A stretch of 64,000 nt of DNA from Candidatus Kapaibacterium sp. (GTDB lineage Bacteria; Bacteroidota; Ignavibacteria; Kapaibacteriales; JAEUSM01): positions 62,001 through 126,000 of the forward strand of contig JAEUSM010000016.1 in NCBI GenBank assembly GCA_016788785.1, in the 5' to 3' direction. The first letter of the stretch is position 1, and the number at the start of each line of letters is the position of its first letter. Under the pieces are notes generated by a model. That model worked only from the letters and a program-made list of their open reading frames with translations, ran no database searches and was not told the origin of the DNA. The translations under genes and the position numbers were made by a program. Of the stretch, positions 9,041 to 39,720 are shown piece after piece.

Positions 9041-9416
9041 TCTTATGTGACGGTTATGTGATAGATTTTCACATACGCAAATAATGGAGATGGGAAAATG
9101 GGCAAAATCTTATGTGACGGTTATGTGATAGATTTTCACATACGCAAATAATGGAGATAGGAAAATGGGCAAAATCTTATGTGACGGTTATGTGATAGAA
9201 TTGCACAATCGCACACAATGGAGATGGGAAAATGGGCGAATTCTTATGTGACGGTTATGTGATAGAATTGCACATACGCAAATAATGGAGATGGGAAAAT
9301 GGGCAATATCTTATGTGACGGTTATGTGATAGATTTTCACATACGCAAATAATGGAGATGGGAAAATGGGCGAATTCTTATGTGACGGTTATGTGATAGA
9401 TTTTCACATACGCAAA
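9041..9416. repeat. Tandem array of 67-bp direct repeats (5.6 units)
   Basis: Units begin at 9041, 9108, 9175, 9242, 9309 and 9376. The spacing is exactly 67 bases each time, and the last unit stops after 41 bases. Each unit carries TATGTGA twice, 11 bases apart (in unit 1 at 9044 and 9055), and an inverted TCACATA (9069-9075). Units 3 and 4 vary at the inverted copy. There are no unique spacers, so this is not CRISPR. The array fills nearly the whole gap between two genes. It looks like an operator or iteron array for the gene at 9443. Confidence 0.95.
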
Positions 9417-30660: not shown

Positions 30661-31069
30661 GTTTTTTGATGTCCCCCTCACCCCAACCCACTCCCTCGTA
30701 GAGGAGAGGGAGATTGATTGCTTATGCCCACTCACCCCCACTTCGACTACGCTCAGTGACCGTTATCCCTCGTAGGGGAGAGGGAGATGTGTAGTAATGA
30801 CCTCATCACTCTCACTTCGGCTCCGCTCTGTGGCCGTTATCCCTCGTAAGGGAGAGGGAATAAGTTGGTATGTTTTGGTAAGGATTCCACCCCGTCACTT
30901 CGTGCCACCCCTCAAGAGGGGAACCCAGAAAGCCACCCCGACCTTCGGTCACCCCTCCTAATTTAGGAAGGGAGTTTTAAACTGCACCCTTTGAGGGGAG
31001 CTGTCCGAAGGACTGAGGGGTTATCTTCTATGCTGAGACGCAAAGCATTGCGTCTCTACGAATATGAAT
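30661..31069. repeat. Mosaic of dispersed palindromic modules
   Basis: No gene was seen in this ~410-base stretch. It contains repeated CTCCCTCGTAGGGGAGAGGG modules, CACTTCGACTACGCTCAGTG, CACTTCGTGCCACCCCTCAA and a near-copy (30933-31069) of 29024-29161. The two copies flank the clpX fragment and lipoprotein gene as direct repeats. Confidence 0.88.
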
Positions 31070-34096: not shown

Positions 34097-35167
34097 CTAC
34101 TTCACAAAAGTTAGCTGTCTCACATACTTACCGTCGATGGTGATTTCGTGGAGATTTGCTATATCTCCGTTATGGTCTCGCATGGAAACTGCTAATGTTG
34201 TTGGTGAAAGGAATGCAAGTTGTCGGTGGTTCTCACTTCCATATACATATTTGCAGAATTGTTTCCTTGCATTAATCATGTACTTGTAAGTAAATGACGA
34301 AGTAAACGGATTAGACTCTTGTAAATCAAAAATATAGGTATTTGTAAATCCTTGTATAGCCAAATATCTGCTGTCTGGGGACCAAGCCATCGAAAAAGTA
34401 TGACTATTGACTTCCAAATTTTTTACGCGAATACCATTTATGGTATAATAGTCGTAGTTCAGATTGTAATCTCTGTATTTTCTTAAGGTATATTTTTTAT
34501 CTGGGCTTATAGAAATACTTTGTACATTCTCAGTTGAAACATTTACAAACCTATCTTCTTGAACTATATATTCTCCTAAAGTATCCAGAGAATGTAATCT
34601 ATCCGTCAAAGTTGCATTATCAAAAGTCCAATTAGTAAATCCACCTCCACCTTGATATTCTACACCGTATTTACCCCATGTTGAAGGAGTAACTTCTACA
34701 AACTCTTTAGATATAATATCAACTATAAAATAGGTTTGTCCACCAACAATTTTACCCTTGCTGTTTTTATGATAACCACTACACCCTAGTAGAATTTTTG
34801 AATTATCTTTAGGTGAAAAACATACTATATAGCCAAAGTCTATATTATACTCTTTTGGTATAATTTCAAATGGATTAATATTTATAATTTGTAAAGATTT
34901 AGTATTTAGCAAAGTTCTATGTGCAATTACAAGTAAGTCTCCATTAACGGATGTTCCAAGTGCGTCATGAATAAAGTTTGGTAAATTCTTATTTTTTGGC
35001 AGTGGACATTCATTTTCATCATCAAATGGAACACCATCAGGGCATGTAGGACAAATGTATTTAATTGTATCTTTTGGCTCTACAGGGTCTGGTTGATTAT
35101 TATGTTCATTACAGGATGTAACGAACATAAATATTAGAATAAGATTTAATAATAGAAATGTTTTCAT
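34097..35167 (-). CDS. Lipoprotein, propeller-like, family member 2
   Basis: 356 residues. The signal LLLNLILIFMFVTSCNE has the lipid Cys in TSC. A short Cys motif follows (CPTCPDGVPFDDENECPLP), then a beta-rich body (SISPDKKYTLRKYRD, MAWSPDSRYLAIQGF) ending EITIDGKYVRQLTFVK. It is closely related to the next upstream gene (35172) and more distantly to 29426. It lies four bases after that gene, in an operon headed by the T9SS protease. The function is unknown. The CPxCP segment is odd for an exported lipoprotein and could hold a disulphide. Confidence 0.78.
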   Translation of the reverse strand: MKTFLLLNLILIFMFVTSCNEHNNQPDPVEPKDTIKYICPTCPDGVPFDDENECPLPKNKNLPNFIHDALGTSVNGDLLVIAHRTLLNTKSLQIININPFEIIPKEYNIDFGYIVCFSPKDNSKILLGCSGYHKNSKGKIVGGQTYFIVDIISKEFVEVTPSTWGKYGVEYQGGGGFTNWTFDNATLTDRLHSLDTLGEYIVQEDRFVNVSTENVQSISISPDKKYTLRKYRDYNLNYDYYTINGIRVKNLEVNSHTFSMAWSPDSRYLAIQGFTNTYIFDLQESNPFTSSFTYKYMINARKQFCKYVYGSENHRQLAFLSPTTLAVSMRDHNGDIANLHEITIDGKYVRQLTFVK

Positions 35168-35171
35168 AAGA

Positions 35172-36320
35172 TTACTTTACAAAAGTTAACTGTTTCACAT
35201 ACTTACCATCTAAAGTAATCTCATGTATATATGCATAGTTTGAATTATGATCTTGCATAGCAATTGCCAAATTATTTGAAGGCAAAAATGTGATATTTCT
35301 ATAGATATCATCCCAAATATATTTGCAGAATTGTTTTCTAGGTATAATTTTATTTACAAGAGAATAATTTACTGGACCACTTAAAGGTGGTTTATTTTCA
35401 TCTAATAGTTTGTATACCCAAATTCCCGAAAATTCTTCAAGCTCATAATTTGAACCAAAAGTTTTAGAATATATTGATCCAGTTATGGCCATATATTTAG
35501 AATCGTTAGACCAAGAAACACCAGTAATTTTTTCAATAGTAGAATCTATTGCAATTTGTTGAGTATTTATGTATAAATGTTGCGTATTTAAATCAGGAAA
35601 TTGATATCTAATTTCAACTGTGAAATTCGCATTAGGACTTTTCGAAATTATTTTTCCCGGATAACCAGAAGGAATAATAAATCGGTCTGCTTTGATATAG
35701 TAACTACCCCAATCATCACTAAATTCTAATGAGGTGGCATTTCCAGAATGCCCAATCCACGAAACTATTGAACCTTTCTCCCAACCTAAATTTCCTGCTT
35801 TACCAAATAAAGAAGGCGATATTTTTTCAACAGATTTATCAATAAAATCAATTATAAAAATTCCTCGACCTTTAACTATAATTCCAGATTCATCCGGTAA
35901 ATTCGTTTCTGTTGTCATTAAAACTTTAGTATTTTCAAGAGGGCTAAAAGCAATTAAACTCGCATCAACATTCGAAGCACCAAATTCAAGAGGTATAACT
36001 TCGCTTGGTAACAAAGAATAAATTTGTTTTGAGAATAAATTCATTACCCTAGTACTATCAATTATAATATAATCACCCTTAAAGGAAGTAGCCACTGCAA
36101 ATTGATTAAACTCTCTAAGATTTCTCCATTGGTAATTGTTGAGATTATATGGTAAAGGACATTCTTCAACGCTATCAAATGGTACACCATTAGGACAACT
36201 AGGACACTTATATGTTACAGTATCTTTTGGTTCTTTAATATCTGGTTGATTACCTTGGTCGTTACACGAAGTAACGACCATAAGTAATAGAAAAAGACTT
36301 GAATAGTTTATGGTTTTCAT
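35172..36320 (-). CDS. Lipoprotein, propeller-like, family member 3
   Basis: 382 residues. Signal YSSLFLLLMVVTSCND, then CPSCPNGVPFDSVEECPLP and a beta-rich body with GVSWSNDSKYMAITG, ending EITLDGKYVKQLTFVK. It shares these blocks with 34097, so the pair is a tandem duplication. It starts four bases after the protease gene, making a tight three-gene operon. It may be a surface partner or immunity-like companion of the protease; that is inference only. Confidence 0.78.
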   Translation of the reverse strand: MKTINYSSLFLLLMVVTSCNDQGNQPDIKEPKDTVTYKCPSCPNGVPFDSVEECPLPYNLNNYQWRNLREFNQFAVATSFKGDYIIIDSTRVMNLFSKQIYSLLPSEVIPLEFGASNVDASLIAFSPLENTKVLMTTETNLPDESGIIVKGRGIFIIDFIDKSVEKISPSLFGKAGNLGWEKGSIVSWIGHSGNATSLEFSDDWGSYYIKADRFIIPSGYPGKIISKSPNANFTVEIRYQFPDLNTQHLYINTQQIAIDSTIEKITGVSWSNDSKYMAITGSIYSKTFGSNYELEEFSGIWVYKLLDENKPPLSGPVNYSLVNKIIPRKQFCKYIWDDIYRNITFLPSNNLAIAMQDHNSNYAYIHEITLDGKYVKQLTFVK

Positions 36321-36324
36321 AATA

Positions 36325-39036
36325 TTATCTCACTATCATAATTTTGTAACTATAAACTTTATTGTCATTAACAACATCAACAAAATAACTACCAATCGGA
36401 AGTTTTGAAACATCAATTGAAATAGGAGTATTGATCTGTGATGGTTCAATTTCTACAGAATTTATCACTTCACCTAATAAAGTACGAATTTTTACCTGAT
36501 TTTTAGAAGTTAATGCTTCTTTCCATTGAACATTAATGTATGAATGTGCAATTGACGGATAAACAAAATGAAGTTCTTCCGCAGTTCCTTTTGCAACTGT
36601 TGTTGGAGTGATCACTTTTGCAAATATCGATAGATTTACTCCTAAATCACCTGTCGCTGGCAATAAAGCAATTAGTGCGTTTTTATTATCGTAAAGTGCA
36701 TATTGAAATGTACTAACATCAACAATACCACTTTTCATGTATGGACCTCCTCTATGATGTATAATACCAGGCAATAAATTATGACCTGGTGTCAATAAAT
36801 GACCTCCATCATCTTCAGAATTATTATGACTACCTGGTAGTACGACAGAATACCCATGTTGCATTTGAGGATTTGCAAGTGACCATCCTGAAGGTTTTGT
36901 TCTACCACTTACACCCCAAGTATAAATTGGAGAAGTATAATCAATATTAGTAGGTAATACAATTTGACCTGTTACTTTTCTTACTTTTACACGGTAATTT
37001 CCAAAATATTGACTTTCATTCCAATCTGATGCTTCTGCAAAAGACATAGTCCAATTTGGATTTCCCTTTGCAAGTGGATGAAGTTCCCATTCTCCAAATC
37101 CAAGAGTCACAGTACTTCCCTTTAAAACTCTATATCCATCATGTAACATTCTAAATGCATCACCTGCATTAACTTGACCCCAACCTGAATAAATATCAAA
37201 ATCTTCGAGATGATTATTAAATCCTCTTTGTCCTATTCTATCTTCAGCACTTGCCTTTAATATACCTTGATAATCTTCAGGTTCTAAATCATTAAAAAAA
37301 CCGTAGTTTACTGCATATGACCTTAACAAGCCATATATACCAGAGGTAATTGCTGCGGAAATTGATGTTCCCTCAGTTTGTTCAAAACCAATGTTAACGT
37401 TATTCCCTGGATCTGCGATTTCGGATATTAAGACTGCTCTATTTAAATCTTGGACAGGATCTGGATAAGGGTGATTTCTTCTTTCACCTGTTGACACTAT
37501 AAAGTCAAGAGTTCTACCAAAATTAGAATATCGTACTCGATCTTTTTGATATGTAGTATTTCCTTGTAAAGTTGGATGTCTTTCACCAGCAGCACCAACA
37601 CAAGTGATTAAATGTTCTTCGTAACTAGCTGGATATCTTGGAAATCCATCTTTTTGATATTCATAAGTATTGTAATTTTGATATCCTGATAATTCACAAT
37701 TACCATTACAACCAGCAGTATCTGCATCATTTCCCCTTCCCGTAACAACACTAACATTATTTACAAATGCATACTGAATAGCATGTTGAAGGCTTGAAGA
37801 TGGAAATGTAACCCATGAACAGTTTAGTATATCTACTTGATTCCCATATCCAGTACGTGGATTTCTTGAAGAATTTTCAAGGATGGCACTTATAAAAGCA
37901 GAAGGCGTTCGATTTTTGTATGGATCTGGATCAATGTCCCATTGTACAACTTTTAGGGCATATAATTTACACCCAAAATTATTTCCACCCCAGCCTCCAG
38001 CTACACCTGCAATTCCATCATCACATTGAGATGTACGATCATTAGTTCTAGCCGCTGCTACACTAGCACATAGTGTACCATGCCAAGCCCAACGATTAAT
38101 CGTTGTAAAATCAAAACTAGGAGGAAGATAGTTAAAGCCATATGCAACTTTATTATTTGGTAGAATACCACCATTAGGAAGATTAAATTCACACTTATCA
38201 TATTGAATGCCATCGTCAATTATCCCTATTTCTATTTCAGGAAGTCCTGTTTCATATGCCCATACACTTTCAATGTCTGTCAATTGAGGTTGAAAGGCTT
38301 TTTGATTTCCATACCTTAAATCACTAGGAATTGTAGTTGGTTTATAATAAAAACAAGGTTCTACATAATACAATGAATTCTGGTATGCAACTGTTAATGC
38401 AAAACTAGATGATAAGACACTAGTATCATTTGAAAGAATTCCTTCGAAATACAAATAATCTTGACAAACAACAGTATCACCAAGAATAGAAATAGAGATT
38501 GTATCTTCACAAGGATTAGCAGAGGTTAATCTTCTTAATGTATCTATACCTTTTGCTAGCATTGCATTTGCTAATAATGAATCTGAAGTAACTTGATGAG
38601 GGGTAAATCTTTGAGAAAATAAGTAGATTTTTTGATTTGTTGTCAATAGACCCATTTGAGTTTCAGAATTTTTAGCTTTATTAGATAAGTTATCATCAAA
38701 ATTATAAGTGTAACATAGATTTTCTAACCGTAAAGCATTTCGTTTGAACTTGATGATAACTGTATTTGGTGAATATGAAGTATCAGGTGGAGGCCATGAA
38801 ACTACTTGAGCATTACCTAGTGCATCACTAAGCCGGATGTCCCAACCTTGCCCATAACTTTGCGGAGTAGTTATGAATGTAGAGCAAATCATAAGGAAAG
38901 CAAAAAGCAGGGTTTGCTTATACCAATTGATATTGCCGGTCTGCCGGTCTGCCGGTCTGCCGGTCTGCCGAAAGTGTTGAAGAAAGAGAGAAACTACCAA
39001 TATTTTTGGTAGTGGTCGAAGGGTTAAATAAACCAT
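36325..39036 (-). CDS. T9SS-secreted subtilisin-like serine protease (S8), start uncertain
   Basis: Up to 903 residues from the ATG at 39036. The catalytic triad is Asp274 (IGIIDDGI), His319 (WAWHGTLCAS) and Ser558 (TEGTSISAAI), with oxyanion Asn436 (GRGNDADT). A signal-peptide-like stretch (KQTLLFAFLMICSTFITT) begins near residue 40, which is unusually late. The last ~85 residues are a type A sorting domain (VSKLPIGSYFVDVV). The extra N-terminus includes an 8-bp tandem repeat (38935-38970). A second ATG at 39040, better placed after GAGG (7 bases, versus 11), is in another frame and stops after 40 codons, so expression may depend on repeat number. Confidence 0.88.
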   Translation of the reverse strand: MVYLTLRPLPKILVVSLFLQHFRQTGRPADRQTGNINWYKQTLLFAFLMICSTFITTPQSYGQGWDIRLSDALGNAQVVSWPPPDTSYSPNTVIIKFKRNALRLENLCYTYNFDDNLSNKAKNSETQMGLLTTNQKIYLFSQRFTPHQVTSDSLLANAMLAKGIDTLRRLTSANPCEDTISISILGDTVVCQDYLYFEGILSNDTSVLSSSFALTVAYQNSLYYVEPCFYYKPTTIPSDLRYGNQKAFQPQLTDIESVWAYETGLPEIEIGIIDDGIQYDKCEFNLPNGGILPNNKVAYGFNYLPPSFDFTTINRWAWHGTLCASVAAARTNDRTSQCDDGIAGVAGGWGGNNFGCKLYALKVVQWDIDPDPYKNRTPSAFISAILENSSRNPRTGYGNQVDILNCSWVTFPSSSLQHAIQYAFVNNVSVVTGRGNDADTAGCNGNCELSGYQNYNTYEYQKDGFPRYPASYEEHLITCVGAAGERHPTLQGNTTYQKDRVRYSNFGRTLDFIVSTGERRNHPYPDPVQDLNRAVLISEIADPGNNVNIGFEQTEGTSISAAITSGIYGLLRSYAVNYGFFNDLEPEDYQGILKASAEDRIGQRGFNNHLEDFDIYSGWGQVNAGDAFRMLHDGYRVLKGSTVTLGFGEWELHPLAKGNPNWTMSFAEASDWNESQYFGNYRVKVRKVTGQIVLPTNIDYTSPIYTWGVSGRTKPSGWSLANPQMQHGYSVVLPGSHNNSEDDGGHLLTPGHNLLPGIIHHRGGPYMKSGIVDVSTFQYALYDNKNALIALLPATGDLGVNLSIFAKVITPTTVAKGTAEELHFVYPSIAHSYINVQWKEALTSKNQVKIRTLLGEVINSVEIEPSQINTPISIDVSKLPIGSYFVDVVNDNKVYSYKIMIVR
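38935..38970. repeat. Octanucleotide tandem repeat (GCCGGTCT, 4.5 copies)
   Basis: Four perfect copies of an 8-base unit plus half a unit lie inside the 5' coding region of the serine protease. The unit length is not a multiple of three, so any copy-number change shifts the frame. Confidence 0.97.
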
Positions 39037-39293
39037 TCATAGGGTTACCTCATATATAAAGGTTGATAAAAAAATGTATATTACAATGTGTATCCTGATT
39101 TTATGTGAAGAAAGTAAAAATATGCACCCCTTTTTTCTCTTAACTCTCGCTTTTTCGTTTACATCACTAATTAACTATTTATATCTTTAGTCTCTTCTTG
39201 GATTAAATTACTGCATTAATTTGAATTCTCCAAATTTTTTGTATAATTTTTTGATATTTCGTGAAATTAATATTGATTTTGTTGATTATATGC
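39037..39293. other. AT-rich leader region of the protease operon
   Basis: About 250 bases without a gene. On the minus strand it holds GAGG seven bases before the ATG at 39040. No convincing promoter or hairpin was seen. Confidence 0.4.
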
Positions 39294-39720
39294 CCCCTCA
39301 CCCCTGCCCTCTCCCTCGTAGGGGAGAGGGAGAAGTGTAGTAATGACCCCCTCACTCTCACTTCGGCTCCGCTCAGTGACCGTTCTTGCTCGTTGGGGAG
39401 TGTGGGATTTTGCAGTATGCCCCCTCTCCCTAACCCTCTCCCCAAAGGGGCGAGGGAATGTGACGTTGTGTTTTGGGAAGGATTCCACCCCATCACTTCG
39501 TGCCACCCCTCAAGAGGGGAACCCAGAAAGCCACCCCGTCACACTTCGACTCCACTCAGTGACCGTTCTTGCTCGTTGGGAAGTGTGGGATTTTGCAGTA
39601 TGCCCCCTCTCCCTAACCCTCTCCCCAAAGGGGCGAGGGAATGTGACGTTGTGTTTTGGGAAGATACCACCCCGCCACACTTCGACTACGCTCAGTGACC
39701 GGTGGCTCTCATCCAAAGAA
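39294..39720. repeat. Dispersed modules arranged as a 183-bp tandem duplication
   Basis: A block starting at about 39361 (CTTCGGCTCCGCTCAGTGAC) recurs 183 bases later at about 39544 and includes TTTTGCAGTATGCCCCCTC and GGGAATGTGACGTTGTG. Single copies of other modules (CTCCCTCGTAGGGGAGAGGG) precede it. Open frames here are products of the repeats and are not genes. Confidence 0.88.

Follow-up and report, generated by a model that had tools for sequence, protein, structure and literature searches.

A putative octamer-repeat frame switch on paralogous T9SS-exported subtilases in a Candidatus Kapaibacterium genome

Phase variation through repeat slippage is familiar mostly from host-adapted pathogens such as Neisseria, Haemophilus and Campylobacter, and switching in the Bacteroides group is known mainly through DNA inversion. 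NalP is a subtilisin-like serine protease, and Dixon et al. reportedly found in 2007 that the initiation codons of lic2A are functional, with potential for differential expression. The opa genes of Neisseria are dispersed paralogs, each put in or out of frame by a tandem repeat within its signal-sequence-coding region, with recombination and gene conversion among the copies (PMC13183285). NalP of Neisseria meningitidis, a surface protease subject to phase variation, cleaves other proteins of the surface and remodels both the surface and the secretome (PMC3723659). For Haemophilus influenzae lic2A, functional initiation codons with the potential for differential expression appear as a cited result in passages of PMC6479036 and PMC6625227, octanucleotide tracts with a putative role in phase variation occur in Haemophilus (PMC2651432), and stochastic, invertase-driven switching of surface functions is reviewed for the Bacteroides group (PMC11868660). 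Among the titles and abstracts that an open-access library returned on slippage or repeat-based phase variation with T9SS, Bacteroidetes or Flavobacteria, none described a repeat switch on T9SS cargo; the mechanism that we propose below is of a known kind, and its cargo class and lineage are new.

We analysed a stretch of 64,000 nucleotides, hereafter the window, which corresponds to C12:62001-126000 in a genome of 18 contigs and 2.97 Mb. It carries an octamer array in the 5' part of a protease gene, and we consider it likely that this array acts as a slipped-strand translational phase switch on paralogous S8 proteases exported by T9SS. Each of four such proteases would then probably be switched on and off at random, in the manner of surface genes in some pathogens. 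The features of the window copy are the following.

34097..35167, minus strand: lipoprotein 2, a paralogue of lipoprotein 1 (40% identity), 4 bp after lipoprotein 1
35172..36320, minus strand: lipoprotein 1, resembling beta-propellers (weakly TolB-like) and beginning 4 bp after the protease stop
36325..39036, minus strand: S8 subtilase with a T9SS C-terminal tail (Pfam), 903 aa from ATG2
38848..38928, minus strand: signal-peptide segment NWYKQTLLFAFLMICSTFITTPQSYGQ, wholly 3' of the array and near-identical in four loci
38848..39290, minus strand: conserved leader block, compared by blastn, with 5' flank/promoter region, ribosome site, starts, hairpin, array and signal peptide
38918..38920, minus strand: stop codon of the ATG1 frame at the present array length, from frame reading
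38934..38971, minus strand: octamer array (CCGGCAGA)n, 4.6 perfect copies preceded on the 5' side by one degenerate base; the putative frame switch
38993..39013, minus strand: hairpin-forming inverted repeat CTACCAAAAATWTTGGTAG with a T-rich tail, lying between ATG1 and the array and conserved at four loci
39034..39036, minus strand: ATG2, start of the protease-reaching frame in the window, present in C12, C3 and C15 and absent from C16
39038..39040, minus strand: ATG1, the start conserved at all four loci; in the window copy its frame does not match that of the protease
39048..39051, minus strand: GAGG, a ribosome-binding-like site read from the sequence, 7 nt before ATG1 and 11 nt before ATG2

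The original prediction had placed an octamer repeat within the 5' coding region, and Tandem Repeats Finder indeed reports, at window 38934-38970, a repeat of period 8 with 4.6 copies and a 100% match, whose unit on the gene strand, 5' to 3', is CCGGCAGA; the 5' side of the array bears one extra degenerate unit, TCGGCAGA. A comparable run was never obtained in the shuffled window (expected 0.00), and these shuffles, together with read-backwards controls of 0, rule out an artefact of chance or composition. As in SSR contingency loci, the unit has 8 bases, not a multiple of 3, and it lies inside the 5' reading frame, between the start codons and the signal peptide; it contains no stop in any of the three frames. 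Elsewhere in the window, a 67-bp unit is repeated 5.6 times at positions 9041-9416, the copies being 92% alike.

Two ATGs in different frames precede the array, as had been predicted, and GAGG is better spaced for the first of them. At the present array length, the ATG1 frame (39040) stops after 40 codons, with a product ending in YQLV, and the ATG2 frame (39036) runs for 903 aa through the protease; the window copy can thus be translated from ATG2 and is not simply off. The predicted frame arithmetic also holds: one more unit brings ATG1 in frame, a state that occurs in the five-unit paralogs on C3 and C15, and one unit fewer leaves ATG1 and ATG2 both out of frame. After such a loss an ATG at 39053 enters the body frame, but it meets a stop after two codons. 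Termination in the wrong frames is early, with products of 40, 51 and 57 aa, as in contingency loci.

The next body-frame ATG falls within the hydrophobic core, and starting there would destroy the signal peptide. Since a start after the array would lose the export signal, a secreted product must be translated through the repeat. It is very improbable that the frame of the array is irrelevant, the protease being translated from a non-standard start downstream or by re-initiation once the short upstream frame has ended, and the array being an mRNA element or spacer. Coupling of this kind is conceivable because the stop of the ATG1 frame (38920-38918) lies close to the start of the signal-peptide segment, but from the array to the hydrophobic core the body frame holds no ATG, GTG or TTG, and the conserved ATG1 reads straight through in C3 and C15.

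In the slippage switch that we favour, gain or loss of one unit would shift the frame by 8 bases (2 mod 3), because the array sits between the start codon and the signal peptide. With five units the well-spaced ATG1 would be in frame, giving full output; with four, the frame in use would be that of ATG2, 4 nt past ATG1 and at a greater distance from the ribosome site, and output would probably be lower; with three or six, neither ATG would be in frame, both wrong frames would stop soon after the array, and the gene would be off. Such a tuning of output by two ATGs of presumably different strength is plausible, its basis being three closely similar leaders; the fourth has no ATG2.

A pattern search of the 2.97 Mb genome found the array at exactly four loci, on contigs C3, C12, C15 and C16 (read-backwards control 0), and a protein search with the window protease independently gave the same four loci as paralogs. 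In all of them it occupies the same position, separating the start codon from the signal peptide of an S8 protease, and the distance from ATG1 to the array is the same, 69 nt, in C12, C3 and C15. GAGG is retained in C3 and C15 and is AAGG in C16. The array has 4 units in C12, 5 in C3, 5 in C15 and about 8, preceded by a degenerate stretch, in C16, counts that compare paralogs of one genome in one assembly rather than strains, and that could be misstated by assembly from short reads. Between these paralogs, as expected of contingency loci, the different lengths correspond to three kinds of phase. The well-spaced ATG1 reads into the protease in C3 and C15, and in C12, the window copy, only ATG2 does so; in C16 neither conserved start does, ATG1 stopping after 57 codons and ATG2 being absent. 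The sole remaining in-frame ATG of C16 is internal, within a degenerate repeat unit, and might give some product.

Mixed phases across the loci are to be expected of a single snapshot if the loci switch independently. The original proposal that repeat slippage acts as a frame switch is strengthened by the three paralogous loci, which bear the same array at other lengths and in other phases. If the four proteases are switched independently, as is probable, a population would carry mixed repertoires of surface or secreted proteases, presumably to its benefit. Slippage would be expected to go on within the species; four to five octamers are a short tract, it may be slow, and the differences in unit number between paralogs could be old rather than ongoing.

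The body of C16 is open over 860 codons, its pairwise dN/dS against C12 is 0.16, and in the tree its branch (0.17) is no longer than that of C12 (0.20); C16 is therefore not decaying, and a pseudogene is ruled out by the dN/dS value and the branch length. Near the end of the C16 contig, L097:15314-15353 holds four copies of a 10-bp unit, CGATAATGTA.

The array was not found in 122 other genomes of the order (read-backwards control 0), nor in 394 other genomes sampled from the phylum. The leader block gave only short AT-rich chance matches in other genomes of the order and no match among the viral contigs scanned. At the homologous loci of relatives, none of the 7 checked had a 5' tandem repeat; close relatives were sought among named genomes and none was found, and a profile scan returned only distant S8 proteases. 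An array known from 1 of 123 genomes of the order and 1 of 395 of the phylum sample, together with a fifth locus, C17, that is a decayed relic, fits a tolerated, slowly drifting insertion in a dispensable n-region of the signal peptide, with the in-frame copies simply expressed, C16 as a recent frameshift on its way to a pseudogene and no selected switching. We judge this unlikely: the body of C16 is intact and has evolved no faster, at least two deep lineages of the family have acquired the array with its leader, and the unit has no stop in any frame; an insert that breaks the frame should have been purged, yet it is retained at four loci. The relic itself, L091:5570-7360 (G000:C17:159574-161360), consists of the leader 5' flank, a 140-aa fragment of a protease tail and an intact lipoprotein gene.

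Returning to the phase switch, we compared the leader with the genes behind it. The leader block is present in the four protease loci, and its 5' part also in the truncated locus C17. Its blastn identity to the window is 90-92% in C15 and C3, 74% in C16, and 87% over the first 174 bases in C17. C12, C3 and C15 are 89-92% identical over the 260 bp upstream of ATG1 and 93-100% identical over 45 nt of the signal peptide; directly after the signal peptide the protein sequences of the four loci diverge, and the protease bodies of C12, C3 and C15 share 43-58% DNA identity and about 30% protein identity. In a maximum-likelihood tree built from the mature proteins, C12 groups with C16, and C15 with C3 and the array-less C6 pair, so that the genes bearing the switch form two groups; the exact placement of C3 is unsure because the branches are long. 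As the similarity of the leaders exceeds that of the bodies, and the genes are not one clade, the leader appears to have been moved or homogenised between old paralogs after the bodies diverged. Gene conversion is the simplest route to infer, and the module has apparently spread between deep paralogs.

Such a leader could also be chiefly a recombination handle, serving gene conversion or exchange of protease bodies behind one expression site, with the frame effects secondary. In its favour, C12, C3 and C15 share about 90% DNA identity between -260 and the signal peptide but 43-58% in the bodies, and the switch-bearing genes are scattered over more than one clade. We hold it doubtful, though with a real chance, as each of the loci, at its separate site, comes with a complete gene and a lipoprotein of its own, silent promoterless cassettes were not seen near the loci read, and a frame-breaking 8-base array is not needed for recombination. 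A recombination role can coexist with phase switching, as in opa genes. We keep the phase switch as our reading, and extend it tentatively, at somewhat less than an even chance, to a transplantable module of promoter region, paired starts, array and signal peptide that would have been gene-converted onto deeply diverged T9SS protease-lipoprotein operons, creating a three-level (full, low, off) combinatorial switch of the surface proteases that a T9SS bacterium displays.

The inverted repeat is terminator-like in the window and folds at each of the four loci, C16 showing one compensatory pair change, and inverted repeats like CTACCAAAAATWTTGGTAG are not rare by chance in the window; the conserved element might be a protein site or a hairpin of the attenuator type. 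No sigma-70 promoter was found on the gene strand of the leader. Dispersed CCCTCTCCCC...GGGTGAGGGG repeats lie at window 39300-39700 and 30692-30859, and several of the five loci have them directly upstream of the leader; they may mark duplication or recombination ends.

The identity of the cargo was assessed by domain searches. Pfam finds Peptidase_S8 at residues 268-608 of the window protease (E 1.6e-18) and Por_Secre_tail at residues 825-901 (E 7e-7). All four array-bearing proteins have the S8 domain, and three have the T9SS tail above the Pfam cut-off, that of the C3 paralog being weak (17.5 vs a cut-off of 27 bits). In alignment A1 the predicted catalytic His (HGT) and Ser (TS) are invariant, and the putative Asp is kept in the four switch-bearing copies. 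The genome encodes a T9SS, with SprA found and about 145 tail-bearing frames, so that export of the proteases by this route is reasonable; by its domains and the T9SS of the genome, the window protease is predicted to be a T9SS-exported S8 subtilase. In the array-less C4 paralog, L094:4487-7033, the catalytic Asp position is Glu (GVLEVG) in the same alignment, and the protein may be inactive.

At all four array loci a lipoprotein gene of one family follows the protease gene within a few bases or overlaps it. The 4-bp spacing in the window suggests that the lipoproteins are likely coupled to the switch, and their output would then follow that of the protease. Structure modelling of the lipoprotein (mean pLDDT 73) matched tricorn, TolB and other beta-propellers at TM-scores of about 0.25-0.44; as these scores are low, we claim no function from the matches. 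The same genome has array-less protease-lipoprotein pairs, three at C6 and one at C4, which start with ordinary signal peptides. At L092:2295-7995 an array-less protease paralog is followed by three tandem lipoprotein paralogs, and other loci have one or two.

If the proposed switch is real, the presence of these genes cannot tell whether the proteases are expressed, and a T9SS bacterium would show opa-like combinatorial switching on secreted proteases, for which the four loci offer a ready test set within one genome.

The nearest family-level likeness is to Neisseria opa, in that several dispersed paralogs carry a repeat in the signal-peptide leader and in- and out-of-frame loci occur within one genome. 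Here, four loci lie on four contigs, with a conserved leader, diverged bodies and genes that do not form one clade. Membership of the Neisseria Opa family itself is excluded by the S8 protease with its T9SS tail and by the octamer CCGGCAGA; the two work alike. They differ in the repeat (octamer vs CTCTT), in the number of loci (four vs about 11) and in the two ATGs in different frames here; moreover, the cargo here is T9SS-exported S8 proteases and partner lipoproteins rather than adhesin barrels, in another lineage, and the switch here is predicted from sequence. The nearest functional parallel is NalP, likewise a surface protease under frame switching through a coding tract, which is a single autotransporter gene with a polyC tract, whereas here an octamer array serves four genes and export is by T9SS. 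With lic2A and the other lic genes the locus shares a tandem repeat early in the reading frame, but these are glycosyltransferase genes with CAAT tetramers in larger numbers, and their start-codon usage is experimental where ours is predicted. The Bacteroides invertase systems act by site-specific DNA inversion, whereas the switch proposed here would act by tandem-repeat slippage in the reading frame.
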